From: a virus
Length of the DNA stretch: 64,000 nt
Strand: one strand, 5' to 3'
IMG/VR virus record: IMGVR_UViG_3300007512_000010
Coordinates: 54,971 to 118,970 of that record
Shown here: piece by piece, positions 4,258 to 37,462 of the stretch
Layout: each line of letters begins with the position of its first letter
How positions within the stretch are numbered: the first letter of the stretch is position 1
The notes under the pieces: generated by a model
What the model was told of the DNA's origin: nothing
Database searches by the model: none
What the model saw: only the letters and a program-made list of their open reading frames with translations
Made by a program: the position numbers and the translations under genes

Positions 4258-4266
4258 GAGCATATG

Positions 4267-15981: not shown

Positions 15982-16405
15982 CGCTAAGCTCTTCTATTTT
16001 TATTTTGATGCCCACGAAGTCATGGGCGGGTCCGTCTAATTTCTGAATAAACTCCTCCGTGAAACAAGAATCGTCGATACCTAAACAGTCGGCCAGTACG
16101 TCCTCTAACACCTTTACTAAGTTTGATACGTCCCGCCGCTTGAATCGGGTCTTGGCCTTTGTTGGCCACCCCTTGTTGAACAAGGCTGGTAGGTAGTAGT
16201 AAATACTTAGTCGATGGGGCTTGTCTCCGTTTAGAGGGCTCCCGTCAAAGGACAGTTGTTGGGCTATCTCCATAGACGCTTTCGCTTTAAACTGTTTCAT
16301 CTTGCTAGACGGCCTAGGCCCACGAGCAGTATAGATATACATATTGTTAACTGACGGTGGTAGCAACGTCAACTCTGCAGTGAACACCGTCTTATTTTTA
16401 TTCAC
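15971..16405 (-). CDS. rusA: RusA-like Holliday junction resolvase (144 aa)
   Basis: The hallmarks are PPSVNNMY near the N-terminus and KRRDVSNLVKVLEDVLADCL followed by GIDDSCFTEEF. The Asp residues of RDVSN and IDDS correspond to the metal-binding acidic residues of the RusA family, which resolves Holliday junctions as a dimer. The best start is a GTG at 16405 overlapping the previous stop (GTGAATAA). An upstream TTG at 16432 is also open. Length is slightly above the usual ~120 aa. It sits with other recombination nucleases and probably debranches replication intermediates before packaging. Confidence 0.85.
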   Translation of the reverse strand: MNKNKTVFTAELTLLPPSVNNMYIYTARGPRPSSKMKQFKAKASMEIAQQLSFDGSPLNGDKPHRLSIYYYLPALFNKGWPTKAKTRFKRRDVSNLVKVLEDVLADCLGIDDSCFTEEFIQKLDGPAHDFVGIKIKIEELSDES

Positions 16406-16943: not shown

Positions 16944-16952
16944 AGGCACCTC

Positions 16953-17666: not shown

Positions 17667-17667
17667 T

Positions 17668-18435: not shown

Positions 18436-18436
18436 G

Positions 18437-18715
18437 CTAGTTACCGGTATTTAGCTGTCTCACACACGAGGTGTAAATAGCGTGGTCTAGCTCATTACCT
18501 GCCGCACTAGCCGAGAGTGTTCCAGAGCGAGCGTAAACTCGCCAGAGATCGCCATCGGCTTGTTGTAGGTCGGCGTATTTTTCGCCCATACAGGCGTGTA
18601 TTTTCGCTAACTTCGCATCGTTTGGTTGGATCCAGAACAGGTACCAACCGGTAGAGACGACGAGGAATGAGATTAACACTATGAAAATAGCTGGTTCAGG
18701 TAAGTACTTCATCAT
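18437..18715 (-). CDS. small single-pass membrane protein (92 aa)
   Basis: Start set at ATG 18715 (AGGAG 7 nt upstream, inside the recA-like gene, which it overlaps by 20 nt). One clear membrane segment, AIFIVLISFLVVSTGWYLFW, lies near the N-terminus. A short hydrophilic domain with two Cys follows (HACMGEKY and YTSCVRQL), which could form a disulfide outside the inner membrane. The topology resembles small phage lysis or exclusion proteins, but no family was recognised. Confidence 0.6.
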   Translation of the reverse strand: MMKYLPEPAIFIVLISFLVVSTGWYLFWIQPNDAKLAKIHACMGEKYADLQQADGDLWRVYARSGTLSASAAGNELDHAIYTSCVRQLNTGN

Positions 18716-19778: not shown

Positions 19779-20023
19779 CAGGTCTCCTCTAGTTCTTTTC
19801 TCATTTTTTCAAATTCTTCGATAAGTTCTGGGTCCATACCGTCATCCCCAAGCTGGTCTCTGTACAGACTGACCATGTCGTTAAGCAGCTTCATCTTGAA
19901 GTCCTTAATCATTTGGGGGGCTCTCCCGGAAGCTATTTTTTCCATCGCAGCCTCTTCAGAATCGCAGAGCTTCATCTTCAGAAGTGTTGCGACAAGTTGG
20001 GAGGCGTCGCTGTATTTTTCCAT
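19778..20023 (-). CDS. small acidic helical protein (81 aa), unknown
   Basis: A short, Met-, Glu- and Lys-rich protein predicted to be wholly helical, with a pattern such as DSEEAAMEKIASGRAPQMIK. Its TGA overlaps the recA-like ATG, which suggests translational coupling and perhaps a partner role. No family was recognised. Confidence 0.55.
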   Translation of the reverse strand: MEKYSDASQLVATLLKMKLCDSEEAAMEKIASGRAPQMIKDFKMKLLNDMVSLYRDQLGDDGMDPELIEEFEKMRKELEET

Positions 20024-20027
20024 AATA

Positions 20028-20576
20028 TTACTCTTCTAGGTTTAGGCGTTTCTTCACGGAACGCATCTCAGACTTGGTTACTGGTCCCATAGACATTCGG
20101 TAGCCAGAGCCATCTTCTAGCTCAACGTAGCCTTGGTCTATGTCGAGGAAGGCCCCAACGACGGCATCACCCTCGGTGACAGTGGTATTCACTGATCCGA
20201 TGATTTCTAGTAAGGCTACTTGCCGCTTCTTGATCATGTCATTTATGTCCAATTCTTCCTCCCGGTGAACACTGTGATGGGTTGTGAAGCCGTTCGGATA
20301 ACGGCGCTTCAGCTTGTCTATATTTATATCACCTATGTCCGACAGGTCGAGTTTTAATATGCTCGAAATCCCGGCGATGTACCAAAGGAGATCACCAAGC
20401 TCTTTAGCCAAGTAATCTTTATCAAGGGCGTGCTTATGAAAGACCGCTTTCTTAACGTGGTCAATCAACTCCCCACCCTCCCCAGCAAGACCTAAACAAA
20501 AGTTCGTTAGAAGGCTATCTATTTCTTCTACTGGGATGGTTCTCGCTGCTAACCTTTGGTACTCGCTCAGGTTCAT
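20028..20576 (-). CDS. MazG-like nucleotide pyrophosphohydrolase with C-terminal extension (182 aa)
   Basis: The first ~105 residues carry the all-alpha NTP-PPase pattern: NFCLGLAGEGGELIDHVKK, then LAKELGDLLWYIAGI. These supply the ExxE...ExxD metal site of MazG/dUTPase-2 enzymes, which hydrolyse nucleoside triphosphates (or ppGpp-related nucleotides) to monophosphates. The remaining ~75 residues (from about DINDMIKKRQVALLEIIG) form a second, unrecognised beta-rich part. GGAG lies 9 nt before ATG. Phage MazG proteins are thought to tune host nucleotide pools; the substrate here is unknown. Confidence 0.8.
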   Translation of the reverse strand: MNLSEYQRLAARTIPVEEIDSLLTNFCLGLAGEGGELIDHVKKAVFHKHALDKDYLAKELGDLLWYIAGISSILKLDLSDIGDINIDKLKRRYPNGFTTHHSVHREEELDINDMIKKRQVALLEIIGSVNTTVTEGDAVVGAFLDIDQGYVELEDGSGYRMSMGPVTKSEMRSVKKRLNLEE

Positions 20577-20579
20577 CTA

Positions 20580-21065
20580 TCAGTACTCCGGTGATGTAAA
20601 CTTACTTCCATCTGGGATCTTTGTTACGGCCCAGTTGGTCAGATCGATCCATTCAATATTTTCACTATCTACGATGGCGCAGAAGCCCACAAGGTATCGG
20701 AGCTTCTCATATCCGATTTCTTGTAAGATTACAGACCAGTCCTCGTGGACGTGCTCCTGTAGTTCCGTTGTGAAGTCGATTTCTTCACAGTCTTCAAAGT
20801 CGTCCCCCTCGCCCCCGTCACCATCATTTTTTACAATTATGCGCTCACAGGGCCAACTGGTGTACCCCCCGAAGGCTACGAGTTCAAACGGCTCTTCTTC
20901 CGGGTCACTCGCGTACTTTTGGTGGACCTCTGCGGTATCTACCGCCTTTGTCCAAAGCTCTAAACCATCATCGCTAGAGATGAGGGTATCGAACCAATCT
21001 TGAAACTTCTCTTTGTCCTTCACCCTAAAATAGGATGATCTAACTGCGGGCAGGTAATTAGCCAT
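20580..21065 (-). CDS. hypothetical acidic protein (161 aa)
   Basis: GGAG lies 7 nt before ATG 21065; a TTG two codons upstream is also open. It overlaps the GIY-YIG gene stop by 8 nt. The N-terminus, MANYLPAVRSSYFRVKDKEK, opens like several plasmid- and phage-borne proteins of unknown function that begin with 'ANY...S.YF.V.d...f'. The centre is rich in Asp and Glu (KNDGDGGEGDDFEDCEE). No enzyme motif is visible. Confidence 0.55.
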   Translation of the reverse strand: MANYLPAVRSSYFRVKDKEKFQDWFDTLISSDDGLELWTKAVDTAEVHQKYASDPEEEPFELVAFGGYTSWPCERIIVKNDGDGGEGDDFEDCEEIDFTTELQEHVHEDWSVILQEIGYEKLRYLVGFCAIVDSENIEWIDLTNWAVTKIPDGSKFTSPEY

Positions 21066-21327
21066 AGCCAAACTCCGTGATAAATTCTTCTTTTTCTTTC
21101 TTACTCATACGCTTGAAGCCATGCTCAGAGACTAAGGCTTCCGCCTTGTCCCGGCACCTATGGGAGTAGGCTAAGTAGACGGGTCTTCTAGACCTCGTAT
21201 ACTTAGCCCCTCTCCTGGTGCTGTTATGTTCGTGCACGCGTCGTTTCAGGTCCGTAGTAATCCCTGTGTAGAGAGAACCGTCTGAACACCTAACAACGTA
21301 TACAAACCATAGCTTCTTTTTTGGCAC
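21058..21327 (-). CDS. GIY-YIG nuclease domain protein (89 aa)
   Basis: This is a compact single-domain protein: VYVVRCSDGSLYTGITTDLK provides the VYV...YTG (GIY-YIG) pair, followed by RRVHEHN, AKYTRSRRPVYLAYSH and a Glu-containing EALVSEHGFK. The pattern matches the small YhbQ/SLX1-type stand-alone GIY-YIG group. Members are structure-specific or repair endonucleases. It starts with GTG 21327, GAGG 7 nt upstream, 2 nt after the previous stop. It might also be a degenerate homing-type enzyme, but its operon position argues for a maintenance or attack nuclease. Confidence 0.85.
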   Translation of the reverse strand: MPKKKLWFVYVVRCSDGSLYTGITTDLKRRVHEHNSTRRGAKYTRSRRPVYLAYSHRCRDKAEALVSEHGFKRMSKKEKEEFITEFGYG

Positions 21328-21329
21328 AA

Positions 21330-21755
21330 CTAGCCCTCAAACGGGGAAACAAACTTACGGACAAAGCCTACGTAAAGACCTAAGTCATTATCTTGGAATT
21401 CTGCATCTTCCATTGATTCGCCTAATCTTCCGTAGGCGAAGGCGATATCATTATCTGTGCAGTATTCATCGATCTGGTTTATCACAAGATCCCAGGGATC
21501 GTAGCACTTCCAGTAGTCATGTTCGAATGCAGCCCTGGCAAGTCCATTGTCTGCGTTCACAATGTCTAGGTCAATTTGGGACATTTGGATGTTCTCGTAG
21601 GTTTCCCCAACGGTGAACCCATAGCTACTTGGGATGGGTGCTTTTTTCTCTAGTTCTTTGCACATCTCTTCTTGGGTCTTCAGCCATTTGAAGAAGGCAT
21701 CCATCTTATCCTTAGGTGCCTCAACAAGTATTTGGTAACTACTCCTGTACCCCAT
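21330..21755 (-). CDS. hypothetical protein (141 aa)
   Basis: Start chosen at ATG 21755, with a perfect AAGGAGGTGA ribosome site. The frame is open further but without support. The product begins MGYRSSYQILVEAPKDKMDA and contains several aromatic and acidic segments (FEHDYWKCYDPWDLVINQID). No recognised domain. It is part of a run of small acidic unknown proteins. Confidence 0.6.
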   Translation of the reverse strand: MGYRSSYQILVEAPKDKMDAFFKWLKTQEEMCKELEKKAPIPSSYGFTVGETYENIQMSQIDLDIVNADNGLARAAFEHDYWKCYDPWDLVINQIDEYCTDNDIAFAYGRLGESMEDAEFQDNDLGLYVGFVRKFVSPFEG

Positions 21756-22023
21756 GGCTCTCACCTCCTTCATTTTCAGGGCTATTGGGACAGCCGAACA
21801 TGTGGCCCATGTCTTTGGGCGCATGGCAGCAGTTGTAATGTGTGGGCTCAAGGTCAGGCACATCTTCTTCGTTGCAGTCTGGGTGATCGCAACACCTAGC
21901 GTGACAATGAGATAGTGGGTTTTCTACTGGGCTATGGTGGTCTTCCCACTCATCCGCTGTGTACTTTTGTTCGCAGAAGTAGCAGGTAGCTACATCCAAC
22001 CACTCGGAATACTCAGTCGTCAT
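21739..22023 (-). CDS. small Cys/His-rich putative zinc-binding protein (94 aa)
   Basis: Start ATG 22023 lies inside the end of the preceding gene (11-nt overlap). The product has CYFCEQKYTADEWEDHH, then HCHARCCDHPDCNEED and NCCHAPKDMGHMFGC. That is at least nine Cys and many His, consistent with two zinc knuckles. Small zinc proteins of this kind in early phage regions often bind host proteins or nucleic acid, but no family was recognised. Confidence 0.55.
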   Translation of the reverse strand: MTTEYSEWLDVATCYFCEQKYTADEWEDHHSPVENPLSHCHARCCDHPDCNEEDVPDLEPTHYNCCHAPKDMGHMFGCPNSPENEGGESHGVQE

Positions 22024-22261
22024 TGAAGTAATCCATGTCTTCGTCAGCGTCATCTGTGTCTTCTGTACCGGCCTCATTAAAGAAGGCGTAGCAAGCAGCT
22101 AGATGGGCTTCATCATGGTCGTCTTTTATTAGGGCTTGGCTGTACATGTCGCACAGCGCACCCTCATCGGTCATCATTACTCGGACCAAGATGTTGTTCA
22201 CCGTAATCCAGACCGTATCGTCTACTTGGAATAGTTCTAATTCGTGGTCATGATTCGTCAT
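22013..22261 (-). CDS. small acidic protein (82 aa), unknown
   Basis: The start overlaps the previous stop (ATGACGAATCATGA). Very acidic overall: it ends in a run of Asp/Glu (TEDTDDADEDMDYFNDD) that could mimic DNA or bind a basic partner. The N-terminal part has alternating beta-type residues (TVWITVNNILVRVMM). The function is unknown. Confidence 0.5.
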   Translation of the reverse strand: MTNHDHELELFQVDDTVWITVNNILVRVMMTDEGALCDMYSQALIKDDHDEAHLAACYAFFNEAGTEDTDDADEDMDYFNDD

Positions 22262-22436
22262 CTAACCTTTCTCCTGTTTGTATTTCGTAGTGCCGTACTT
22301 CCCCCGTAGAGAGACACTCCACGGAGGCTACGGTTTCTTCGGTCTCAATACGATCTAGGGTTACTACGAGCGCCCTTTCGAAGCTGTCGGCTTTAAGCTC
22401 ATCCTCGATTATTACTCTATAATGTTTTTGTTCCAT
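22248..22436 (-). CDS. small protein (62 aa), unknown
   Basis: Start ATG 22436 lies within the 3' end of the 223-aa gene upstream (20-nt overlap). The sequence, YRVIIEDELKADSFERALVV then EVRHYEIQTGE, suggests a beta-alpha-beta domain. No recognised family. Translation probably depends on coupling, as its own ribosome site is weak. Confidence 0.45.
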   Translation of the reverse strand: MEQKHYRVIIEDELKADSFERALVVTLDRIETEETVASVECLSTGEVRHYEIQTGERLDDES

Positions 22437-23088
22437 TACCGTGCGTCCCTGCCCCAGAGGGCGTAAAGAGAGGTTTTCCTTCTTCATCAAGAGACCAGCC
22501 TCGGCTGCGCCACACTGGTCCTATGAGTGGCAAGTCGTCACACTTATGGTGCTCTTGCCAGGGCCGCTGCTTCGCATTTCTAAGCTGGTCATTTCCGATC
22601 CCAAAATGCTTCTTTCCCTCCTCCACAACCTTCTCCCAGCCCTCTGAGTAATCAGTGAACGGGGGCTGCAATTGCCGGATAGGGAAAGCGTCGCAGCTTG
22701 GGTCCAGTACGTACATGTGATACTGGTTCGCTGTATCTAGAAGCTCCTCCTGGGGAGGGTACATCTGCATCCCCCAGCAAGCCGTGCCGCAAAGCTCTGA
22801 CTTGATTCTGTAGAAGTCGCGCCAATCTTGCCACGGCTCTCGCGTATTAAGCTTTAATGAAAGCTCCACGATTTGTGGCCAACCCGTCAATCCGAGCCCA
22901 GCGATAACTTCTTCTCTCGAAACTTCCTTGGGGAAGTAGGACATTACAGGGTAGTCATATACGAATACTTGACACTTATCGTTGACCCAGGTTTCCCCGG
23001 TTTTTGCCATTGGGTGGTTTAGTGGCTTCCCAGGCCAAAGAGGTTCCCAATAATTATCGGGAGCAGGCTTGTAGTCTTTTTGGTTCAT
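22417..23088 (-). CDS. DUF7694-like phage protein (223 aa)
   Basis: The start overlaps the upstream stop (TAATG). The central segment, LSLKLNTREPWQDWRDFYRI followed by KSELCG, then YPPQEELLDTANQYHMYVL, matches a pattern I recall from phage proteins of unknown function (reP-x-x-DWR-d-x-q-x-IK-n-E-l-x-G ... L-v-D-t-A-N-q-Y-H-l-w). Such proteins are widespread in phages and prophages with no known activity. N- and C-terminal extensions are unrecognised. Confidence 0.55.
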   Translation of the reverse strand: MNQKDYKPAPDNYWEPLWPGKPLNHPMAKTGETWVNDKCQVFVYDYPVMSYFPKEVSREEVIAGLGLTGWPQIVELSLKLNTREPWQDWRDFYRIKSELCGTACWGMQMYPPQEELLDTANQYHMYVLDPSCDAFPIRQLQPPFTDYSEGWEKVVEEGKKHFGIGNDQLRNAKQRPWQEHHKCDDLPLIGPVWRSRGWSLDEEGKPLFTPSGAGTHGNGTKTL

Positions 23089-23375
23089 TACCAATCCCAT
23101 GTTTGAAAGTTTTTGTCTGTGTTTCCATCTCTATCTAAGACTACAAGCGTGCACTCATCTCGGTACGCGATCTCCATGATCGGAGTGATCCAATCAGGAA
23201 CGCCGTATCCAGGCTCTGAAACCCATACGACGTAGCCATACTCAAAAGACAAAGCCCGAAGGCCCCCAAACTCTGGGGACTCTCCGGGCATATGCGCTGT
23301 TGAAAGGACGAGTGCTTTTTCTATGTACGGATGGTCAGACGAACATTGGTGGTTCTTCTTCCTCTTCCTCGTCAT
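23088..23375 (-). CDS. hypothetical protein (95 aa) overlapping its neighbour
   Basis: A good AAGGAG lies 8 nt before ATG 23375, inside the upstream gene, giving a 41-nt overlap in another frame. After a basic N-terminus (TRKRKKNH) it has YIEKALVLSTAHMPGES and an alternating hydrophobic strand pattern (YGYVVWVSEPG, CTLVVLDRDG). This suggests a compact alpha/beta domain. The function is unknown. Confidence 0.55.
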   Translation of the reverse strand: MTRKRKKNHQCSSDHPYIEKALVLSTAHMPGESPEFGGLRALSFEYGYVVWVSEPGYGVPDWITPIMEIAYRDECTLVVLDRDGNTDKNFQTWDW

Positions 23376-23583
23376 TCAGTAACTCCTTCAATTCTGACGG
23401 TGCTCCCACAACCAGATACGTTGTTGAGCTTGTTTTCTTATTGTGGATGTCTACGTGGGTCTTCCTGTCGTACTCTCCCTCACCGTCCCTATATACAGCG
23501 ATGTGGTAGTCACCGACTTCGAGCGTAATTGAGTCGCAGTCCGGGAAGTAGTTAGTCACCTTTAGCTTTGCTTCTTCAGTCAT
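23335..23583 (-). CDS. small acidic beta-rich protein (82 aa), unknown
   Basis: GGAG lies about 10 nt before ATG 23583. A beta-rich core (SITLEVGDYHIAVYRDGEGE, TTYLVVGAPSEL) is followed by a terminal Asp/Glu run (LNDEEEEEEPPMFV). The acidic tail ends in hydrophobic residues, a layout used by proteins that dock onto basic partners. No family was recognised. Confidence 0.5.
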   Translation of the reverse strand: MTEEAKLKVTNYFPDCDSITLEVGDYHIAVYRDGEGEYDRKTHVDIHNKKTSSTTYLVVGAPSELKELLNDEEEEEEPPMFV

Positions 23584-23821
23584 TTTGTTTCTTCTCCGCT
23601 GCCTGTTCCAGGGAAGGTCCTAAGGTTATTTCTATCCCGACGAGTTTGTACACGTCGTTCCACTCGGCAAAACACTCTTCGCAGGACACTTGTGCCCAGG
23701 CTTCCATGGCGTCTGTGCTCGGAGGCCTTGCACTGATATTTTTAGTGCGGCAGTAGGGGCATCGCAGCCCCCCGCCGTTTAAGTATTGTTCTTCTCGATC
23801 TACGTCTTGTGTTAGTTGCAT
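23576..23821 (-). CDS. small zinc-ribbon protein (81 aa), Lar-like
   Basis: Two pairs, CPYCRTKN and CEECFAEWNDVYKL, form a zinc ribbon. The pattern C-P-x-C ... V-x-C-x-x-C-x-a-x-W resembles the small restriction-alleviation (Lar-type) phage proteins. That resemblance is at motif level only. Start ATG 23821 overlaps the polymerase stop (TGATG), so it is co-translated with the DNA polymerase. Confidence 0.5.
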   Translation of the reverse strand: MQLTQDVDREEQYLNGGGLRCPYCRTKNISARPPSTDAMEAWAQVSCEECFAEWNDVYKLVGIEITLGPSLEQAAEKKQND

Positions 23822-25728
23822 CACTTACACTCCAGCCAGTTGTCCCCGTACTTGCTTGACGTTTCCAAAGGAACAGCCAAGTCGAAGTCAAAGGGATGCA
23901 TCATTAGTTCTTCGATGCGGTCGTTAAATTCTTTATCGTTTACAAATTCTTCAGGCACTTCGAACACGATTTCATCGTGGACCTGAATGACCATTCTGGC
24001 ACCAGAGTTGGCAATGAAATCATCTTCCCATATACGCACCATAGCCATCTTAGTGATGTCCGCAGCCGTACCTTGAATGGGAGAGTTCTTTACCTTTCGT
24101 TCCGCTTGAGCAATGTCAGCACCAACATTAGACCTAAGGCCCGGAACCTGCCGACGCCTACCCAGAAGGGTAGAGCAGAAGCCATCTTCTTTAGCTTTAA
24201 TGATTGCGTTTCTGAAGTACTTTGTGACGTTAGGGAACGCACTGAAGTACTGACGGATAAGACCGCGTGCCTCATCGATTGTACAGTCCAAGGTGCCCGC
24301 TAACTTACCAGCACCCTGCCCGTACATGAGGCCAAAGTTAATCGCCTTCGCGCTCTTTCTGTACTTGAGAAGACTACTCTCGTACTTGTCTAGGCTCTCC
24401 CCGTTATCGTCTTTGGTACGAGCGGCCATAATGTCTTCGTAAGGAACACGAAACATTTCAGCAGCCGTAGACGAGTGAACGTCCATGCCTGCTTGGATGG
24501 CGTCAATGAGTGTTTCGTCATTGGAGAAGTGCGCCAAGATACGCATCTCTAGTTGAGCATAGTCAGCCGCCATTAGCTTATTACCCTGTGATGGGACATA
24601 CGCTGAGCGAATGTATGGGGGCTGGTTCTGTAGGTTTGGGTCCGAAGAACTCAACCGACCAGTGCGGGCACCGGTTTGGTTGAACGACGCATGGATTTTT
24701 TCATCGATGTGGATCTTCTCAAGAAGGTTACTGATGTAGGTTCCAAGCTTTTTATCTAAGTCTCGGTAGAGAAGAAGCTTCGTTGCAAACTCACACCCCG
24801 CACGAGCCCACATGGTAAGAACATCCTTGTTTAGTTGTGGTTGTCCCTTGTCCGTGTAGCTAACTGCTTTTCTGTCCAACCCTTCGAAGAACAGCCCACC
24901 CATCTCTTTGTTCGACTTCAGATTGATGTACATTCGACCGGTTTCTCGGCCAAACCATTTCTGAATAGCCAGAAGCTGCTCTTCGATAACAGGGGCCTGT
25001 TCAAGAAGGGCAATTTTGTCAATTGTGATCCCCTCTCGTTCAAGCATGTACAGAATCTTTGTGAAGGGGAGTTCTGTTTTCAGGTAGTAGTCCCACATGG
25101 TTGGGTAGGGAGCATCTGCTTTGGCCCTCTCTGGGAAGACCCAGATATCTCGCATCTCGTCCCTTACTTTGAAGAAAAGCTTGTATGTTGCATACGCATC
25201 CAGGGAGGCGTAGTTCGATACGATGTCTTCATTGTCTGGGTCTAGAAGAACTTCGTGCAGGGGGCGCTTTCGAAGCTGAGTACCAAACACGGATTTGAAC
25301 GGGACCATTTCGATTCCCGTGTAGTGCTTTGTTAAGAACTTTAGGTCATGGGGAAGGGTGTCATCTACGAGAGCGTGCATGACCATCGTGTCATAGACAC
25401 GGTAGTGGTCTCGGTTGCAATACTTGTAGATGTCTATTCCCACATTACGAAGCATCCAAGTGTCAAAGTTCGCGTTATGCATGATGAGCTTCAACTCTGG
25501 ATTTTCTAGCAGCCCTTTGAAGTACGGGAGCACCTCAGGCCAGATAGCAAACCTTTCTTCACCATCGCTGATTGCGAGGATGATAGTCCGGTCACGGATT
25601 CTGGAGAGTCCTGTAGTCTCTGTATCAACGGCTAATATCTTTTTGTCCTGCAGGGTTTCTGCTAGGGCAATAGCCTGTTCAGGCTCTTGAATCCGGATAG
25701 CATCCGGCAATAGGGTAAACATACCCAT
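23821..25728 (-). CDS. polA: family A DNA polymerase with 3'-5' exonuclease (635 aa)
   Basis: The N-terminal DnaQ-like exonuclease has AVDTETTGL, MHNANFDTWML and YASLDAYATY (the ExoI-III acidic residues). The polymerase part has motif A (DYAQLEMRIL, ~res 387), motif B (RKSAKAINFGLMYGQG, ~res 464) and motif C (VHDEIVFEV, ~res 584). The residue matching E. coli Pol I Phe762 is Phe, the ancestral type. The 5' nuclease domain is absent, as in many phage replicases. A perfect GGAGG precedes ATG. It lies beside SSB-like protein, primase and helicase, so it is the phage replicative polymerase. Confidence 0.97.
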   Translation of the reverse strand: MGMFTLLPDAIRIQEPEQAIALAETLQDKKILAVDTETTGLSRIRDRTIILAISDGEERFAIWPEVLPYFKGLLENPELKLIMHNANFDTWMLRNVGIDIYKYCNRDHYRVYDTMVMHALVDDTLPHDLKFLTKHYTGIEMVPFKSVFGTQLRKRPLHEVLLDPDNEDIVSNYASLDAYATYKLFFKVRDEMRDIWVFPERAKADAPYPTMWDYYLKTELPFTKILYMLEREGITIDKIALLEQAPVIEEQLLAIQKWFGRETGRMYINLKSNKEMGGLFFEGLDRKAVSYTDKGQPQLNKDVLTMWARAGCEFATKLLLYRDLDKKLGTYISNLLEKIHIDEKIHASFNQTGARTGRLSSSDPNLQNQPPYIRSAYVPSQGNKLMAADYAQLEMRILAHFSNDETLIDAIQAGMDVHSSTAAEMFRVPYEDIMAARTKDDNGESLDKYESSLLKYRKSAKAINFGLMYGQGAGKLAGTLDCTIDEARGLIRQYFSAFPNVTKYFRNAIIKAKEDGFCSTLLGRRRQVPGLRSNVGADIAQAERKVKNSPIQGTAADITKMAMVRIWEDDFIANSGARMVIQVHDEIVFEVPEEFVNDKEFNDRIEELMMHPFDFDLAVPLETSSKYGDNWLECK

Positions 25729-25751
25729 AGCTGACCTCCGTTAGCTAGGTT

Positions 25752-25787
25752 GGGTGGACCAGAGGAGTTATTTCCCCTGGCCCACCC
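25752..25787 (-). promoter_or_regulatory. RNA hairpin upstream of polA (minus-strand sense)
   Basis: The 82-nt gap between the SSB-like gene and polA holds a 14-bp stem (25774-25787 with 25752-25765). It pairs fully only in the minus-strand transcript, where two positions are G-U; the plus strand has A-C mismatches there. No U-run follows. It could be an attenuator or mRNA-processing or stability element setting polA level. Confidence 0.5.
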
Positions 25788-25810
25788 CGTACCAAATGAC
25801 GTTGAATTTA

Positions 25811-26989
25811 TTAGAATACGTCGTTGTCGGAGACAGGCGTACTATCGTTGTCTTCCCTGTTGCGGGGAGTTTCGAAGTACTTGTCTAGTGCTCGCTGGGC
25901 ACTCGCGTCAAACGGATTTCGTCGGCCCATCGCCTTCGCTTGGTCATCAAGGTCCTGACGACCAAGAAAATAATCGAAGTCCATGGGTTCAGTCATCCAG
26001 CTAGGAACATCCAGTTCCTCGGATACGGAAAACTCGTCGATGTTTACAGCGGTCCTGTTGCCGACTGAAATGGCTGAGACGGTTACGTCACAGGCAGACC
26101 AGTCAAGCTGGGCAGGATTACCGCACCCCTCAACGTATTGCTTTCGGCTTCCGACGCCTTTAACGTGCACGCAGTCGATAAGCTGCTTAGCTTTAGCGTA
26201 GTGCTTGCACTCTTCGCACTCAACTTCCATAGTCCGAAGCTGCTCTTCGGTGTCAACGTCGATAGCGTCTTCTCTATGGTTTGCGAACTCATTGTCACAC
26301 TTAGCGCACGCATACGCATAAGTACTGATTTCGCCCTCACCGCAACTGGAACAGCTTTCACCGATTCCGTCTAGCTTTGACTCAAAGTCTCTCTTCTGAG
26401 AGTCCCACATTTCCCACCAAAGCTTGCGACCGAATACGATGTCGTATTCCTCGTGAGCAGAAGATGGGTGGACAATCCGACCGTGACGGTCGGCAGCGGG
26501 AACCCGCTCGTAAGTGAAATACTCAAAACCATTCTTTGAGGTATGGGGAATCTTATAGAAGTCCTCAAGAACGAGAACGGTCACAGCGAGCTTTTCATCT
26601 GCCCAATAGTTTTCGCTCTCTTCTTTCTCGCAGTAGTAGTAAAGAACACAGGGGACATCCCGTTCACCATTCCAAGCATTTGAAATGAGGTTTCGGTTTT
26701 GTCCTTCTGGGGTCTTAATCCACTTCGTATAGAACTTATAGAAGGGCTTCTCTTCTGTAGTCGGGATGATGCGAATCCGCGTTGGGGTCTCGTCGGGCTT
26801 AAACTTACTGTCCCGGTGACGAAGCTTCCACGCAGGGGGCATCTTCTTTTCTGCAAAAGAGTTGCTGGCGGGGGGTTTCCTACCCGCCGAGAACTTGCCC
26901 TTTTTACCGGCAAGCATTTTCTTTCTGAAGTCTCCTCGCTGTTGGTCGCGAAAGGATTTCCAGTTTACTGCTTCTTCTTCTTTAGCCAT
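25811..26989 (-). CDS. putative single-stranded DNA-binding protein with zinc sites (392 aa)
   Basis: Start ATG 26989 with GGAG 8 nt upstream. The protein has a basic N-terminus, a central beta-rich region (TRIRIIPTTEEKPFYKFY, VLYYYCEKEE) and several Cys pairs: CSSCGEGE, CAKCDNEF, CEECKHY, and two more Cys (DCVHV, EGCGN). Its acidic C-terminus ends in DNDVF, reminiscent of SSB tails that recruit replication partners. It lies between primase and polymerase. These points suggest an OB-fold ssDNA-binding protein like large phage SSBs. I see no diagnostic motif, so the call rests on position, tail and composition. Confidence 0.55.
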   Translation of the reverse strand: MAKEEEAVNWKSFRDQQRGDFRKKMLAGKKGKFSAGRKPPASNSFAEKKMPPAWKLRHRDSKFKPDETPTRIRIIPTTEEKPFYKFYTKWIKTPEGQNRNLISNAWNGERDVPCVLYYYCEKEESENYWADEKLAVTVLVLEDFYKIPHTSKNGFEYFTYERVPAADRHGRIVHPSSAHEEYDIVFGRKLWWEMWDSQKRDFESKLDGIGESCSSCGEGEISTYAYACAKCDNEFANHREDAIDVDTEEQLRTMEVECEECKHYAKAKQLIDCVHVKGVGSRKQYVEGCGNPAQLDWSACDVTVSAISVGNRTAVNIDEFSVSEELDVPSWMTEPMDFDYFLGRQDLDDQAKAMGRRNPFDASAQRALDKYFETPRNREDNDSTPVSDNDVF

Positions 26990-27968
26990 TTTGACTACTC
27001 CATTCATACGGCTTAAGCGCCGTTTCGATTGATAATTGTGTCTGTGTTTTTGTTAGATCGTCTGGTGATATAGGGTCGTTGGTTCCATAGTTGGCGACCC
27101 GCACCTCAATACCGCATAATTGTTTAATAACTTGGTGCGTTGCTCTCCTCCCTGCTTCATCGTTGTCTAGAAAAATGACCACCTTGTTGGTGACTCTTTG
27201 GAGTAACGTCTTCTGTTCCCTGCTGAGAAATGAACCCAACATGGCAACCGAATCGGTATACCCAGACTGAACACACCATAGGCAGGCTTTAAAGCCTTCA
27301 CACAGTATAACCGGCATGTCAATACTTGTATACATTCTCCTTGGATAAAACTTGTCTAGTCCGTACAGAATGCGGCCCTTCTTAAACTCATAGTTACGAG
27401 AAACTTCGTGGAACTCTGAGCGGTATATTTTGTATCTTGGCATCTCTCCACGGACGGTTCGTCCTGAGATGCCCACTAAATTTCCCTGATGATCCCTAAG
27501 AGCGAAGGTTATCCGCTTACGTCCTCGGTCGAAACCTATGTCGTACTCCCGAAGAAGTTTAGGGGAGAATCCCTCAGCTATGAGTGCTTTGGGCATGTAC
27601 TCAAAGACTCCCAAGATGGCTTCGGGAAGAATAGGCACCGAAAAGTCTAGGGTCCGAAACGGATCTACCTTTACTTTCGGTGCCTGCTCCTCAAGAACCT
27701 TTTTGAAGGTATCCACAATCTGTGGACCAACCTTTAGGTCTTTAAGCAATCCCGTTAGGGTCCACCCCTTGTTGCATGTGTGGCAGAAAGCCATACCTAC
27801 ATGTCGGGATATGGACTGATTACCTATGTAAACATAAAGGGATGGACGGCTCTCTTTGCCCTCCTTATGGAAGGGGCAAAAAGCTGGGAGGTTATCACCA
27901 GGGGTATCGTGTTTATCAAACGTTATATAATTCGATAATAAATCGACTACCTCTTCTTTTGAAAACAT
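26982..27968 (-). CDS. DnaG-type primase (328 aa)
   Basis: The N-terminal zinc finger is CHC2 type: C31-P-F-H34 and C62-H-T-C65. The TOPRIM core reads VILCEGFKACLW (catalytic Glu) and VVIFLDNDEAGR (DxD). Between them lies the RNA polymerase basic patch region (IGFDRGRKRITFALRDHQG, VGISGRTV). At 328 aa it lacks the helicase-binding C-terminal domain of bacterial DnaG (~580 aa), which is usual for phage enzymes. It synthesises RNA primers for the replisome and lies 2 nt from the helicase gene. Confidence 0.93.
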   Translation of the reverse strand: MFSKEEVVDLLSNYITFDKHDTPGDNLPAFCPFHKEGKESRPSLYVYIGNQSISRHVGMAFCHTCNKGWTLTGLLKDLKVGPQIVDTFKKVLEEQAPKVKVDPFRTLDFSVPILPEAILGVFEYMPKALIAEGFSPKLLREYDIGFDRGRKRITFALRDHQGNLVGISGRTVRGEMPRYKIYRSEFHEVSRNYEFKKGRILYGLDKFYPRRMYTSIDMPVILCEGFKACLWCVQSGYTDSVAMLGSFLSREQKTLLQRVTNKVVIFLDNDEAGRRATHQVIKQLCGIEVRVANYGTNDPISPDDLTKTQTQLSIETALKPYEWSSQNG

Positions 27969-27970
27969 CC

Positions 27971-29395
27971 TTACCCCGTTGCTGTATCCTCATCTATCTC
28001 GTCAGGTTCTTGTTGGTTTCGAGCCTGATCCATTAAAGGGCTGGTAACAGCGGGTTGGATCTCAAAGGCATCCTCAGGAACTTCTTCCTGATCGTGCATC
28101 CTTTCCTCTTCATCTTGTGTGTCCGTCAACGAGTACAACGTATCGTGCGCGTACCCGAAGTTTTCCGAGGCAAGCGCATGAATCGTGAACCCAGGGTCTG
28201 TAGTCTCCCTAGCGGCAGCTAGGTGGATACTTAGTTCCTGTTTTCGTGGATGGTAGACAAGACGAATACCTACGTCACAGTCCATTACGGCACCAGTATT
28301 CATAGCTAATGACGCTGTGCCCCTAGACTTTGAATATTTATATGCAGACCGCTCATTTTCTTGCAGAATTGAAAGAACCGGTATTCCGGTTGATTTTGCG
28401 ATTTGCTTTAGCTGTCTATTGATTGAGGACAAGACCTTCCAATCAAGAGCATTTGAATTCCCAGAACCGGGAAGTTCCAACATGTATGACGAATCAAGCA
28501 ACACAAAGTGTGGCCTGTAGATTTCGATTTTACGCCGAACTTCGGCAGGCCCACCGGGTGACCCATCTGGTCTGTCGCAGTTAGTGAAGAATAGCTCTCC
28601 GGGGAAATCATCAGAAGCAAGCTGCTCTTGTGTCTCCAGTAGGTGAGATATCTCGGCACGAGAGAGCGACGCATTCTTAAGTCTGGTGTAGTTCACCTTA
28701 CTCATAATGCTACTCACTCTTCGTCTAACGGCGGTCCACGTCATTTCCTTGCTATATACAAGTACTCGTCTTCCCGTGGACAAGACATGAGCAGCGACAA
28801 CAAGACCGAACCACGTTTTCATGGACTTGGGCAACGCCCACACCATGATGTAGTCCCCTTCTTGAATACCGTTGGTTGCTCGGTTTAATCGTGCCCAGGG
28901 CCAAGGGATTCCGGTAATCCCATCAGCCTCTCTATGACGATTGAGTTCCTCTATAGTTTCCTCTAAGGCAACTTGGGTAAAGACCACATCATCTGATGTT
29001 TGGACCTTTTCTTGGAGTTGTCCTAGAGAGTCGTACAGATCGGTCATGGCCCCAATAGGGTTAGTGCCGGTCTGCTCCATAAAGGTATTGATGAGTTTTT
29101 CGGACTCTCTTTTTACGTGTTGGTGCTTAACCTTTTCACAAAGGTCAACAAGGTTTTCTAGGGGCCTAGGTAGGTCCAGACCCGGAAATTGTTCAGTTAA
29201 AGATTCCTCACTAGGGATATGCCCGAAATTGTTTGGTCTTCGGTAATGCGCGTCTACTGCCGAAAACAGTGACTTAGCCTCCATGTTACCAAACGTACGG
29301 AACTGCAATCCTTCTTTAAGGATAGTCTCCCAAGCCGTTGAGGGGTCTTCTGCGCGAATCACAGAAGAGATTACTTGCAGTTCCCAATTAGCCAT
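27971..29395 (-). CDS. dnaB: DnaB-like replicative helicase with unusual P-loop (474 aa)
   Basis: The N-terminal helical domain (about 1-130) is followed by a RecA-type motor. The start is GITGIPWPWARLNRATNGIQ and EGDYIMVWA. The Walker A at 187-194 reads ALPKSMKT, keeping Lys-Thr but lacking both glycines. VYSKEMTW supplies the DnaB H1a Glu, FVLLDSSYML the Walker B, and an arginine/Gln-rich segment ILQENERSA follows. The acidic Gln/Glu C-terminal tail is probably a protein-binding end. Start ATG overlaps the preceding stop. It unwinds the fork with the adjacent primase. Confidence 0.88.
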   Translation of the reverse strand: MANWELQVISSVIRAEDPSTAWETILKEGLQFRTFGNMEAKSLFSAVDAHYRRPNNFGHIPSEESLTEQFPGLDLPRPLENLVDLCEKVKHQHVKRESEKLINTFMEQTGTNPIGAMTDLYDSLGQLQEKVQTSDDVVFTQVALEETIEELNRHREADGITGIPWPWARLNRATNGIQEGDYIMVWALPKSMKTWFGLVVAAHVLSTGRRVLVYSKEMTWTAVRRRVSSIMSKVNYTRLKNASLSRAEISHLLETQEQLASDDFPGELFFTNCDRPDGSPGGPAEVRRKIEIYRPHFVLLDSSYMLELPGSGNSNALDWKVLSSINRQLKQIAKSTGIPVLSILQENERSAYKYSKSRGTASLAMNTGAVMDCDVGIRLVYHPRKQELSIHLAAARETTDPGFTIHALASENFGYAHDTLYSLTDTQDEEERMHDQEEVPEDAFEIQPAVTSPLMDQARNQQEPDEIDEDTATG

Positions 29396-29697
29396 TAGAA
29401 CTCCCTGTCTACTAAGCCTTTGATGGTTGTACGTACTGCCTCTTCACTGGTGTCATCCTCACTACCGCCAACGCCCTTCAGAAATTCTGACTCAATCGCC
29501 TCAACAAGCTGTTGTGCTTTTGTCAGAACTTCTTCAGAGAACTCATTAGACGTCGCCATACCTGCGGCTTTTCCCTCCGTTAAGTACGCGATACTGGCCT
29601 CCACCGTAGGACGCACATTGGTCCCATGGTGGTGCCAGGACACCGTAACCTCAAAACACTTGAGGCCGTTTATTCGGTTGCTGTTAAATTCAATCAT
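29395..29697 (-). CDS. hypothetical replication-block protein (100 aa)
   Basis: Start ATG 29697 lies inside the end of the preceding gene (8-nt overlap; GAGGAAC upstream). It begins with beta strands (GLKCFEVTVSWHHHGTNVRP) and ends with a helical acidic part. It is directly upstream of, and overlapping, the helicase start. The arrangement is that of a helicase-associated small protein, but no loader motif is seen. The paired gene 29690-30019 has similar size and character. Confidence 0.55.
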   Translation of the reverse strand: MIEFNSNRINGLKCFEVTVSWHHHGTNVRPTVEASIAYLTEGKAAGMATSNEFSEEVLTKAQQLVEAIESEFLKGVGGSEDDTSEEAVRTTIKGLVDREF

Positions 29698-30019
29698 TGA
29701 ATCGTTCCTCATACAACCGTGTTCTAATGTCTGTAACATGGCCCATCATGGCTTTACCGAGATGCTCACGAGAAGCCTCCCAAGCCAAGTCATATGCCAT
29801 GTTGTGCGCAGCACGGATAGTGTCGGCGTTCTGGTCACACTGAAGCGTGACACTTGAGAAAACCTCAACGCTGTATGGGATCTTATCCCAGGTCCCTTCT
29901 GCGTAATGTACTGAGTCTGATACTTTTGTGGATACGCTGGCTGTAACAGCAGCGTATCCATCGTCTCGTTCAAATACTAAGTCTCGAACGGGGATTCGAT
30001 CTTCAAGTCTTTCGGCCAT
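29690..30019 (-). CDS. hypothetical protein (109 aa)
   Basis: AAGGAG lies 6 nt before ATG 30019. A beta-rich first half (AAVTASVSTKVSDSVHYAEG, YSVEVFSSVTLQCD) is followed by a helical second half (NADTIRAAHNMAYDLAWEAS). This is the same beta-then-helix plan as its neighbour, so the two may be diverged paralogues. It is the first gene after a hairpin and a promoter-like motif, so a new transcript may begin here. Confidence 0.55.
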   Translation of the reverse strand: MAERLEDRIPVRDLVFERDDGYAAVTASVSTKVSDSVHYAEGTWDKIPYSVEVFSSVTLQCDQNADTIRAAHNMAYDLAWEASREHLGKAMMGHVTDIRTRLYEERFND

Positions 30020-30049
30020 TTCGTACTCCTTATCTTTTTTAGATGGTCC

Positions 30050-30074
30050 ATCTTTCCACGTTTTTCGTATAAAG
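30050..30074 (-). promoter_or_regulatory. candidate phage promoter, minus strand
   Basis: Read on the minus strand, CTTTATACGAAAAACG starts at 30074, just after the hairpin at 30080-30100 and about 45 nt before ATG 30019. The first 11 bases match 462-472 on the plus strand exactly. Terminator followed by promoter is the expected layout for a new transcription unit. Confidence 0.4.
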
Positions 30075-30079
30075 ACGGA

Positions 30080-30100
30080 GAGGGTGCCGTAAGCACCCTC
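30080..30100 (-). terminator. hairpin terminator within early block
   Basis: GAGGGTGC (30080-30087) and GCACCCTC (30093-30100) form an 8-bp perfect stem with a 5-nt loop. It lies 24 nt beyond the stop of the 140-aa gene. On the minus strand it is followed by TCCGTCTTTATA, a modest U-tract. Confidence 0.6.
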
Positions 30101-30123
30101 CCCGTCGTGCATGCGAGCACGCA

Positions 30124-30546
30124 TTATGCGACCTTAATAACGACTTCCTTCGGGGCCGAGACCCGTGGGGTGCCGTGCTTTTTGGTTCTAGCACCGTTAA
30201 TCAAGTCGGCGTCGAAGGTACCTGCAACAATACCTTGCTCGATTACACGGTTATCAACGGATTTAACGACGCCAGGGGTCTTCAGATATGAAGACGGAAG
30301 TTCATGGGGCTCGTAGGCCCAGGTTTCTGGTGCCCGTGAGCGGTCCATAATCCCGATAGACATGGGGTCCGTTCCGGGACGACTTCTAAATGCGTCAATC
30401 GCATTACTGCGAGAAACGTTGTACTCCTGTACAAGTTGATGGAACTGGTCAAACACTTGCTCGTGGTCAGCCATAAATTCCAACAATTGATCTCTTTTGT
30501 TTGCGAAAGCTTTCTCAAGCTTCCGTACTTCTCGTTCACTAGCCAT
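30124..30546 (-). CDS. hypothetical helical protein (140 aa)
   Basis: A perfect AAGGAGG 7-8 nt before ATG 30546. The first ~60 residues are strongly helical and charged (coiled-coil-like: REVRKLEKAFANKRDQLLEF). The rest is loop-rich with a basic end (GARTKKHGTPRVSAPKEVVI). Codons resemble those of the highly expressed genes, so it may be abundant. It is the last gene before an internal terminator. No family was recognised. Confidence 0.55.
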   Translation of the reverse strand: MASEREVRKLEKAFANKRDQLLEFMADHEQVFDQFHQLVQEYNVSRSNAIDAFRSRPGTDPMSIGIMDRSRAPETWAYEPHELPSSYLKTPGVVKSVDNRVIEQGIVAGTFDADLINGARTKKHGTPRVSAPKEVVIKVA

Positions 30547-31207
30547 GTTGATTCCTCCTTAAGGATTTGATTCTGTGGGCTATATCTAAACCCACGCGTA
30601 TGTTATCTAGTGTCTTATTCCATATACCCCCGACTTTTTGTGACGGGTTTCTATACAGTTGGTTGACAGATGGGAGTGCCATAGTAGGCACTGGGTATTT
30701 AATTAGGTCTCCCTGAATGAAGGCCTCTACTACCCGCCCTTGTACTTCTTGAACCTTTACGTTTGGAACAAGCGCGTTCACTGAAGCGGAGCCGAAGGCA
30801 AATATAAGGCAAGGCTCAATTAGATGAATCTCTTGGTGGAGCCGTGTATTACATGCTTCTACTTCTGACTTTTTCGGTGCCGGAAGCATCTCTATTCGAC
30901 GTGGTTGTGGCCTAAGCCCCCCTGTCGGGCAAGATACTACTGGGGTAACCCAAATAGCCGCTGGACTCATTCCGGCTCTCTTGAACAGAGTGTTCAGGAA
31001 CCGGCCTTCACCGCTTGAGAGAATATCGCCTGTCACAGCGGCCCTTGGGCCGACGCGATCAATTACAGCTACAAGGTGGGTACTAGGACTGCCTTTTCCA
31101 CAAAGAAGAACTTTGCGGTTTCTGTGGAGACCACATGAGGTGCAAGAGCGTTGTTCGAACAGTAAGTTCTCAATCTTCTCTTCCGATGTCACTGTGTCTA
31201 AATCCAT
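30539..31207 (-). CDS. family 4-like uracil-DNA glycosylase superfamily protein (222 aa)
   Basis: C22-TSC25-GL opens the protein, as in Fe-S-containing family 4 uracil-DNA glycosylases. GEGRFLNTLFKRAGM matches the 'G-x-x-F-L/N-x-L' segment after motif 1. WVTPVVSCPTGGLRPQPRR gives the third Cys and the substrate-loop region. CLIFAFGSASVNAL corresponds to the 'i-v-x-l-G-x-x-A' strand. The canonical GEAPG motif 1 is changed (VIDRVGPRA), so activity on uracil is uncertain. In a phage this enzyme could repair DNA or act on a modified base. It overlaps the SF2 helicase gene by 38 nt. Confidence 0.65.
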   Translation of the reverse strand: MDLDTVTSEEKIENLLFEQRSCTSCGLHRNRKVLLCGKGSPSTHLVAVIDRVGPRAAVTGDILSSGEGRFLNTLFKRAGMSPAAIWVTPVVSCPTGGLRPQPRRIEMLPAPKKSEVEACNTRLHQEIHLIEPCLIFAFGSASVNALVPNVKVQEVQGRVVEAFIQGDLIKYPVPTMALPSVNQLYRNPSQKVGGIWNKTLDNIRVGLDIAHRIKSLRRNQHG

Positions 31208-32573
31208 TGGCTCTAATACTCTTCCTTAGGTGTTTACACATTGCCCTGGCTGGGCCAAAGTTATAGTCGTCTAAAACGATAACCACTGGGGGTTTCTTGT
31301 CTTTGTGGCGGCGTTCAATTCTCCCCTTCCCTTGTTGAAACGCCCCCCAAGCCTTAAATGGACTAGCAAAAATAAGCGTGTCCAGTGCTGCGACATCCAG
31401 CCCCTCACGGGCAACCCCAAAAGTGGCGAAAGTCACGTTGTTATCTTCAATTATTTTCGTTCGGAGGTCTCCGGGGGTATCCCCTGAAACCGCCCCTGCT
31501 GTATACCTTTCCTTACACGGGCTGTCCAGAAACTTCTCAACCATGATGGCTGGATGATCCTTACTGTGCGTGAGGACAAGGACTTTTCTTCCACTGTCCA
31601 ACGCGGACTCGACCGTCTTTAAAAGGGCGACGTTGCGGGCGTCGTGCTCCGCAAAGTATTTGTACATCTTCCCCGCCGAGAACTCTCCGGTGATGTCTTT
31701 AATCACCGAGGTGTCTTTTGGCATTGGGGTGGACACCTTCTTGAAGTATATCTCCGCCTCTATGTCACCAGCTAAATCACTATAGAAAATGCGCCCTACA
31801 TGAGAGTAGTACACATCTTCTAAGCCATCTTCCCGGCAAGGTGTAGCGGTTAAGCCGAACCTATTACCGAAAAATAATGGGGCTGTCTGGCTAAAGGTTG
31901 TGGCCGAGAGGTGGTGTACTTCATCAAACACAACAGTTCCAAAGCGGGTTCGGATATCCAAGGGGATAGAGTCTGCTCGTTTTGCGAGGGTGTGAATCAT
32001 GGCGATGACAAGAGGTTTATCCCACTCAGCCTTTGGGCCTTGCACGATACCGATGTCATCTTCTGAGATGTCCAAAAACTCTAATGCACGCTCTTTCCAT
32101 TGATCCATAAGGCCACTGTTGTTCACCACAACGACGGCGGGATGTCCGCGCTGAGCAATCTTTTTTAGTGCTAGGACGGTTTTGCCTTTTCCGCAGGCTA
32201 GGTTCAAGACACCGTGATTTCTTTCAGAGAAGGCTTCCCAAGCAGCAAGCTGGTCAGCGTCTCTAGGTGTGATCTTGTCACCGAAGTCAAAAGATTCGTA
32301 GGAAAGAGAGACTTGTTCCCAAGACTCTACCTTCTCTAACCAGACCTCTTTAGTGAAAAAGTGTCTAGCTATTACAACGTAATCCCCTACTTCTGCGGCT
32401 AGCGGTACTGAGGTTACATCCCCAGTCCGGTCGTTTACCACATTGATCGTGGCTGCTCGTATGAAGGCTTGCTTGTTGGTCAACCGCTCAGAGGGAACCC
32501 AAACGGAAGCAGAACAACAAACTAGACCTTCAAGCGACGCACCCTGGTCACTTTCTGGTAGGTAGGGTTTCAA
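31170..32573 (-). CDS. SF2 DNA helicase, XPB/UvsW-like (467 aa)
   Basis: Helicase motifs in order: Q-like region DADQLAAWEAFSER, Walker A ACGKGKTVLAL, motif Ia VVVVNNSGLMDQWKERA, DEVH box VVFDEVHHLSA, TATP (GLTATPCREDG), motif IV KVLVLTHSKDH, motif V FATFGVAREGLDV, and motif VI QGKGRIERRHKDKKP. This is the RAD25/XPB or T4 UvsW type of ATPase that remodels forks, R-loops or Holliday junctions. An N-terminal ~100-residue domain precedes it. It starts at TTG 32573 with GGAG 7 nt upstream, inside the end of the XRE gene. Confidence 0.9.
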   Translation of the reverse strand: MKPYLPESDQGASLEGLVCCSASVWVPSERLTNKQAFIRAATINVVNDRTGDVTSVPLAAEVGDYVVIARHFFTKEVWLEKVESWEQVSLSYESFDFGDKITPRDADQLAAWEAFSERNHGVLNLACGKGKTVLALKKIAQRGHPAVVVVNNSGLMDQWKERALEFLDISEDDIGIVQGPKAEWDKPLVIAMIHTLAKRADSIPLDIRTRFGTVVFDEVHHLSATTFSQTAPLFFGNRFGLTATPCREDGLEDVYYSHVGRIFYSDLAGDIEAEIYFKKVSTPMPKDTSVIKDITGEFSAGKMYKYFAEHDARNVALLKTVESALDSGRKVLVLTHSKDHPAIMVEKFLDSPCKERYTAGAVSGDTPGDLRTKIIEDNNVTFATFGVAREGLDVAALDTLIFASPFKAWGAFQQGKGRIERRHKDKKPPVVIVLDDYNFGPARAMCKHLRKSIRANGFRHSDIGRED

Positions 32574-32574
32574 G

Positions 32575-33012
32575 TTACTTCTCCAATATCCGGGTTATTG
32601 CCCCCGAGATAAAATGTTCCATACTCTCCGTTCGTTCTGTTGGGAGGTGCTCAAAGAACAAGTCCACTATTCGGGCGGTCTTGTCTTCTGAGATGGAGTC
32701 CTTTTTAATATATTTCCGAAGTTCCGCGTTAGCGGCGGCACCAAAAGCTCGTTTAGCTGCGGGCTCTCTTTTACTTCGTTCTTCGTATAGAGCCGCTATC
32801 AGCCGTTTAGCCTCTTCGTCTTTACTGGGGTCAAGGTCGAGTGCCTTAAGAATCTTCTCCAAACTCTGGTTTGGCGGTAAAACTTTGCCCGTTTCGTACT
32901 GACGGTACGTCTCTCTATTTAATCCACACAATTCTGCAAATTTACGAGAGGACAGTCTGCGGCTGGTTCGCATGGTTGACAAAACCGTGCCGAAACGAGA
33001 TTTTGTTTTCAT
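32575..33012 (-). CDS. XRE-family HTH transcription regulator (145 aa)
   Basis: Residues about 8-62 form a Cro/CI-type helix-turn-helix: GTVLSTMRTSRRLSSRKFAE, LCGLNRETYRQYETGKVLPP, then LEKILKALDLDP. A C-terminal helical part (about 90-145) may be for oligomerisation. GAGG lies 6 nt before ATG. It is near the start of the minus-strand early operon, beside the strand switch at 33297-33382, so control of early or divergent late transcription is likely (inference). Confidence 0.85.
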   Translation of the reverse strand: MKTKSRFGTVLSTMRTSRRLSSRKFAELCGLNRETYRQYETGKVLPPNQSLEKILKALDLDPSKDEEAKRLIAALYEERSKREPAAKRAFGAAANAELRKYIKKDSISEDKTARIVDLFFEHLPTERTESMEHFISGAITRILEK

Positions 33013-33023
33013 AGAGTCCTCTG

Positions 33024-33296
33024 CTAGTTGTCTTGATCGCTATCATGATATATGACAGAATCTTCTTTGTCACAAGCAGATACTTCGTCAAAGTCGATAT
33101 CTATGATGGTTCCACCGGTTTCAAGCGCAGTCCCTGTGGTATCTTGAGAGGGTGGTTTGCGGAGACTGCGGGAGATCCTATTGAATAAGTCCATCAAACC
33201 AGTTACTAAAATTTCAGGAACTTCTCTGGGTTCATCTGTTGTTATAGAATCAGTTGGCACTTCTACATTAATGGTATACGGTTTATCATTTGACAT
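33024..33296 (-). CDS. first gene of early block, small acidic protein (90 aa)
   Basis: Start ATG 33296 with GGAGG 7 nt upstream. A longer in-frame extension would run through the divergent promoter region and is rejected. The product is MSNDKPYTINVEVPTDSITT followed by an acidic sequence with one amphipathic helix (LVTGLMDLFNRISRSLRK) and an acidic end. No family was recognised. Being first in the early transcript, it could act on the host. Confidence 0.55.
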   Translation of the reverse strand: MSNDKPYTINVEVPTDSITTDEPREVPEILVTGLMDLFNRISRSLRKPPSQDTTGTALETGGTIIDIDFDEVSACDKEDSVIYHDSDQDN

Positions 33297-33340
33297 GATC
33301 ACTAACCTCCGAGTTAGGGTGTAGGTAAGGTAGCTAACAA

Positions 33341-33360
33341 AGTGCTTATACCAAAAAGGG
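33341..33360 (+). promoter_or_regulatory. candidate late promoter at the strand switch
   Basis: AGTGCTTATACCAAAAAGGG lies 23 nt before ATG 33383, at the start of the long plus-strand structural block. It matches AGTTCTTATACCTAAAACGG at 37417-37436 in 11 of the first 12 bases. No sigma70 -10/-35 pair is evident here. Confidence 0.45.
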
Positions 33361-33382
33361 CTCAACCATTGTGGAGATAGAA

Positions 33383-37309: not shown

Positions 37310-37462
37310 GTGTTAAGACACCACATAAAGCACCTCTTTGACTATTGTTCCATGATTGTTAGAAAGATACACGCTGGTATACTCCTCTTATTTGGTTGGG
37401 AGCTACATTGCTCCATAGTTCTTATACCTAAAACGGGAGCGTAGTTAGCGCGGAGGCACCCA
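37310..37462. other. leader region before RNA polymerase gene with small hairpin
   Basis: This non-coding 153-nt stretch holds GGAGC-tacatt-GCTCC (37399-37414), a 5-bp hairpin, just before the promoter-like element at 37417-37439 and the GGAGG ribosome site. No other gene was seen. Confidence 0.4.
37417..37439 (+). promoter_or_regulatory. candidate promoter of the RNA polymerase gene
   Basis: AGTTCTTATACCTAAAACGG ends 27 nt before ATG 37463. Its similarity to 33341-33360 (11 of the first 12 bases) and partial similarity to 462-478 make it the best-supported phage-specific promoter candidate. A separate promoter here fits the reversed gene just upstream. Confidence 0.45.

Follow-up and report, generated by a model that had tools for sequence, protein, structure and literature searches.

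A predicted leftward early promoter of sigma type next to the gene for a phage single-chain RNA polymerase

A short motif, CTTATACC, stands just upstream of a phage gene for a bacterial-type RNA polymerase. The initial annotation of this DNA had taken it for a plus-strand, phage-specific promoter that the phage polymerase or a phage sigma would read. Is it a promoter at all, which way does it point, and what would read it? The window, i.e. the whole 64-kb stretch analysed, makes up the end of a phage record of 118,970 bp; a longer record of the same phage (G001, 155,722 bp) shows 99.99% identity over 99 kb, and a search of a phage collection for DNA near to the window gave no matches. Genes in the window are split by strand, with the polymerase and virion genes on plus and the replication genes on minus (Table 1); PHROGs matches in the replication module are to helicase, DnaB-like helicase, primase, DNA polymerase, MazG and RecA/UvsX. 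Three plus-strand genes 5' of the polymerase gene (33383-34378, 34365-35021 and 35031-37034) have no PHROGs or Pfam match, and a plus-strand protein of 2883 aa (4264-12915) has none in PHROGs.

Table 1. Genes and predicted promoter elements in the window, in window positions
Feature	Position	Strand	Remarks
Single-chain fused beta-beta' RNA polymerase, 2077 aa	37463..43696	+	Pfam Rpb2 and Rpb1 domains
RNA polymerase start codon			~35 nt from promoter A -10 block, on its far side
Block of polymerase and virion genes	from 33383	+	RNA polymerase, then helicase, terminase (51758), head protease (57704)
Possible major head protein	62018	+	Weak match
Leftward replication module	14913..33296	-	PHROGs matches; faces promoter B
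Cys-rich (zinc-ribbon-like) gene, 73-76 aa	37031..37255	-	Conserved; leftward of promoter A
Predicted promoter A	37399..37450	-	Distant-phage model: 26.0 bits, rank 1
Promoter A parts	37449-37446; 37428-37421; 37414	-	-35-like GCTA; GGTATAAG; predicted start G
Promoter A 5' hairpin	37414-37399	-	GGAGC-AATGTA-GCTCC; hairpin in 12/12 orthologous loci examined
Predicted promoter B	33338..33373	-	Own-group model: 28.8 bits (site among its training sites); distant-phage model: 18.3 bits, rank 4
Promoter B parts	33373-33369; 33352-33345; 33338	-	-35-like CACAA; GGTATAAG; predicted start G; faces replication module
Predicted promoter C	13689..13724	-	Own-group model: 24.2 bits; distant-phage model: 23.0 bits, rank 2
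Promoter C parts	13724-13721; 13703-13696; 13689	-	-35-like GCAA; GGGATAAG; predicted start G; the CTTATCCC variant of the initial annotation
Predicted promoter D	30607..30642	-	Distant-phage model: 18.5 bits, rank 3
Promoter D parts	30642-30638; 30621-30614	-	-35-like CACAA; GGAATAAG; inside ORF 30539-31207

Upstream of the RNA polymerase gene, CTTATACC is invariant at 16 loci with relatives of that gene, over flanks that are little conserved, and is therefore functional DNA. It is the complement of a minus-strand -10 block, GGTATAAG. Listing the relatives' sites on both strands brought out this T-rich block, a conserved G, and a Shine-Dalgarno sequence with start codon 35-80 nt downstream. 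The full minus-strand order is a GCAA-like box, 16-17 nt, TTTTnGGnATAAG, 6 nt, and a purine start with a pyrimidine before it. Many of the RNAs would open with a hairpin at the 5' end, and the Shine-Dalgarno and the gene follow. The core from a variation-tolerant model can be written as GGnATAAG-N6-G. At scores above 13 bits, five close genomes yield 75 sites and resampled DNA 9, and 53 of the 75 have a gene 20-100 nt downstream on the minus-strand reading. Two fixed distances give these sites the layout of a sigma-type bipartite promoter. The GCAA-like -35 box lies exactly 16-17 nt before the GG in 44/54 sites, and a purine occurs 7 nt after ATAAG in all 109 sites of a set drawn from five phage groups, with a pyrimidine just before it in 106; this set was picked solely by GGnATAAG (GnTATAAG in Vibrio phage D181), so that the start position was not selected on. 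De novo octamer counts, the kind of search that had been proposed for the motif, ranked a GGnATAAG/TATAAG family first or nearly so in each of the groups, D181 included, on the strand opposite the polymerase. As a bare heptamer, CTTATAC is no commoner in the window than chance predicts (4 found, 5.05 expected).

The genes around the sites give the direction. Close relatives gave 56 intergenic sites. In 46 of them a gene begins 20-100 nt downstream when the site is read in the minus-strand (leftward) sense, and only two have a gene solely in the plus-strand sense; gene starts come from a simple home-made gene caller, with which the deposited annotation agrees at the three D181 sites checked. 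The motif flips along with the gene strand (G001 25114 and 27814; G004 117290 and 119989; G005 57521). These flips, the gene positions and the ordered features (-35 spacing, initiator, hairpin and Shine-Dalgarno), all on the complement, overturn the plus-strand direction. Of the initial proposal, a phage-specific promoter very probably stands, with the phage polymerase or a phage sigma as its plausible reader. As judged from sequence, we are confident that the element is a leftward promoter. At the polymerase locus the frame of the Cys-rich gene is kept downstream of the motif in G001, G003, G004, G005, G007 and G008, and in relatives a short ORF with a strong Shine-Dalgarno precedes it, so there is a leftward unit here too. 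Plus-strand genes adjoin the motif because the gene pairs are divergent. The distance from CTTATACC to the polymerase gene and to the gene at 33383 is short and conserved in the close group, as a plus-strand promoter for these two genes would have it, but at the polymerase locus of distant relatives it loosens to ~63-114 nt, and together with the orientation counts this makes such a promoter very unlikely. At two divergent loci the plus-strand gene is equally close (33-43 nt), and plus-strand activity may therefore be possible there. Either the element could be bidirectional at these loci, or a holoenzyme on the leftward promoter could repress the polymerase gene; the tight, conserved overlap in the close group would fit, as would a -35 region that abuts the ribosome site and start of the polymerase gene. 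Since no plus-strand initiator or upstream box was detected and the overlap is looser in distant relatives, we hold this to be improbable, if less so than the plus-strand promoter.

Four promoters are predicted in the window. Our first own-group model was trained partly on sites that it scores; only a model trained on the distant phages D181, G014, G029 and G031 alone is independent. This model ranks 37428(-), 13703(-), 30621(-) and 33352(-), in that order, as the best sites of the window, where 40 resampled windows gave a maximum of 19.0 and a mean of 13.4 bits. The two weaker scores (30621 and 33352) fall within the extreme of this null, and both sites have same-place counterparts in relatives; those of promoter D, which is ~70 nt before a gene starting at 30546, are G003 89149, G004 54439, G005 173966, G006 44632 and G009 30179. 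The strings that had first drawn attention to the motif fared unequally. AGTTCTTATACC (37417-37428) and AGTGCTTATACC (33341-33352) do match in 11 of 12 bases and shortly precede the plus-strand genes at 37463 and 33383, and the variant CTTATCCCTAAAAAC near 13695 is present and a true member, belonging to promoter C; the member at 30621(-) is an addition. CTTTATACGAA occurs where reported, at 462-472(+) and 30074-30064(-), but both copies are below the motif threshold and outside the family. The first, said to stand before a structural gene, is actually inside a 998-aa ORF that starts at 411, and the homologous spacer of G003, G004 and G005 lacks the second, which follows a hairpin. TTATAC at 3498 likewise fails the threshold. 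The -35 box that had been judged unconvincing exists as the GCAA-like upstream box on the minus-strand side, and was missed because the motif was read on the wrong strand.

The predicted leftward RNAs of the close group begin with a hairpin, placed at the predicted start, in 31/56 sites; shifting the windows left 5-8, and shuffling the sequence 6.8. All 12 orthologues of the polymerase locus that were examined have the hairpin, with stem sequences that differ among them. The feature was without significance in D181, G014 and G029. We also considered an RNA hairpin element preceding CTTATACC and rejected it, as it is explained by the 5' end of the leftward RNA. Stem-loops at 5' termini can stabilise RNAs, and on this general ground the hairpin at the predicted +1 would probably protect the RNA 5' end.

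What might read such a promoter? The polymerase is of bacterial type, with beta and beta' domains, PDB matches to beta' down to 2e-116, and the motif FNADFDGD, which includes the active-site NADFDGD. A sigma70-family protein of ~230-300 aa was found in all large genomes examined; the phage's own copy lies outside the window (G000:21468-22367), that of D181 is at 10995-11684 (3e-32), and G004 has just the 3' end of the gene, at a contig edge. None was found in G006, a 62.7-kb fragment. Detection went through homologues of weak matches in distant relatives; in the close group, searching for Pfam sigma region 2 gave no match, and the annotated sigma protein of D181 gave no usable one. The profile of the protein matches solved sigma factors (best 6e-14), Pfam places Sigma70_r3 above cut-off with r2 and r4 weak in the own copy, and Foldseek with a predicted structure of modest confidence (pLDDT 68, pTM 0.38) returned mostly SigS and SigA at E ~1e-7. 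The own copy is a genuine sigma70-family factor, with regions 2, 3 and 4 related to bacterial sigma. Wherever the sigma gene could be placed, it shares the strand of the polymerase gene. Having the phage polymerase and phage sigma read the promoter is the most economical reading of these sequences and, we think, a fairly probable one.

Host enzymes have to be weighed against it, since a host core with the phage sigma, or host sigma with an extended -10, would leave a promoter of similar build. The host RNA polymerase with host sigma70 could use the element as an extended -10 promoter (TGGTATAAG): TATAAG is one base off TATAAT, a G commonly stands 14 nt before the start, and reading of the first genes would need no further explanation if a host enzyme did it. 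However, the first T of TATAAT is kept in only 37/56 sites and the last base is G, not T, in 55/56 (seed sites had been chosen for that G), the -35 box is GCAA-like in place of TTGACA, and the motif is also found in phages with a polymerase of only ~30% identity, a Vibrio phage (D181, OZ196140.1) among them. Consensus host sigma70 promoters show no clear excess in the phage genomes, and we regard host reading as unlikely. About as unlikely, by a shade less, is a phage sigma on the host core polymerase, in the manner of T4 gp55 or SPO1 gp28, which would make this a middle promoter class. The phage factor being a genuine sigma70-family protein speaks for it, and phage sigma factors usually act on host core. 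This is also what they do in jumbo phages without their own polymerase (PMC7598289). Against it, these phages have a full bacterial-type polymerase of their own, for which some other specificity factor would then be required, and no clear set of host-type promoters was found that would start infection.

We return to the phage polymerase with the phage sigma. The best explanation as a whole, which we consider likely, is a leftward, sigma-type bipartite early promoter read by these two. The element would consist, on the minus strand, of a GCAA-like -35 box, 16-17 nt, a T-rich GGnATAAG -10 block, 6 nt and a purine +1, and a phage sigma70-family factor bound to the single-chain beta-beta' polymerase would recognise it. 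From the motif, its orientation and conservation, and the presence of polymerase and sigma in the sequences, we infer that it would fire early, driving the replication module (from 33338) as well as small leftward units that begin at 37414, 13689 and probably 30607. Two things make a virion-borne enzyme, ready for use as soon as infection begins, a possibility: the polymerase and sigma genes both lie on the late strand, and no clear excess of host-type promoters was seen. Such a putative packaged enzyme would explain how early genes get read first. A complete sigma-dependent system of the phages' own is a tentative extension that we think possible yet rather doubtful: polymerase and sigma would be made late, packaged, and at the next infection read a lineage-wide early promoter into RNAs with a stabilising hairpin. 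If true, it would offer a compact, host-independent model of sigma-dependent initiation. The motif recurs across a wide group of phages that encode both a single-chain RNA polymerase and a sigma factor of their own, and we found no description of it in the literature searched. It would serve to flag early genes in the genomes of many uncultivated phages, and the promoter can be tested in Vibrio phage D181.

We note some further observations. (i) In D181 a second promoter-like motif, TAAAATATA, precedes genes that are mostly on the polymerase strand, e.g. at 141034(+) and 30688(+), and is frequently paired back to back with the early motif (141005(-)/141034(+), 30659(-)/30688(+)); it is a candidate late promoter. 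A second promoter class on the late strand is clear in D181 and was not found in the close group. (ii) An annotated second sigma factor of D181 (133218-133994(-)), on the early strand and downstream of an early motif at 135057(-), could be a late-class factor. (iii) The D181 polymerase gene (144071-152053) is in pieces, annotated as several ORFs and interrupted by a homing endonuclease. (iv) In G001 an early motif stands just before a tRNA-like gene at 28434-28500(+) (ggggccggtagctcaaccgg...), and the motif may also drive tRNAs.

Among known systems, the giant phages of phiKZ type come close. The early promoter of AR9, read by the virion RNA polymerase, is AAATATATATTAT-(6N)-G+1 (PMC5312081, PMC7598289). 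Shared with phiKZ and AR9 are a conserved block near -10 that is over-represented before early operons, a start G after 6 nt, divergent pairing with late genes, and a phage-encoded polymerase of multisubunit type. Of the AR9-type features scored, the 6-nt spacing and start purine are present here but the long AT-rich block is absent, its place being taken by the core GGnATAAG; a -35 box at sigma-like spacing and a sigma70-family factor are further differences. No recognisable sigma factors are known to be used by the polymerase-encoding jumbo phages that PMC7598289 reviews, and AR9 needs an unrelated protein. The phages studied here resemble the mReC phages (multisubunit RNA polymerase-encoding Caudovirales; PMC7481178) in being tailed, coming from metagenomes and having bacterial-like beta and beta'; the mReC paper reports beta and beta' subunits, and the words 'promoter' and 'sigma' are absent from it. 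Two-barrel phage polymerases and two distinct early-class promoter motifs are likewise known from the virion and non-virion polymerases of P23-45 (PMC10770324). With bacterial promoters of the sigma70 family the element shares its two boxes, 18-19 nt from the -35-like box to the hexamer nATAAG, and a Y-R initiator 7 nt downstream; it differs in the boxes themselves, GCAA-like and nATAAG rather than the host consensus TTGACA and TATAAT, with the first T of the -10 free and a G as its last base.
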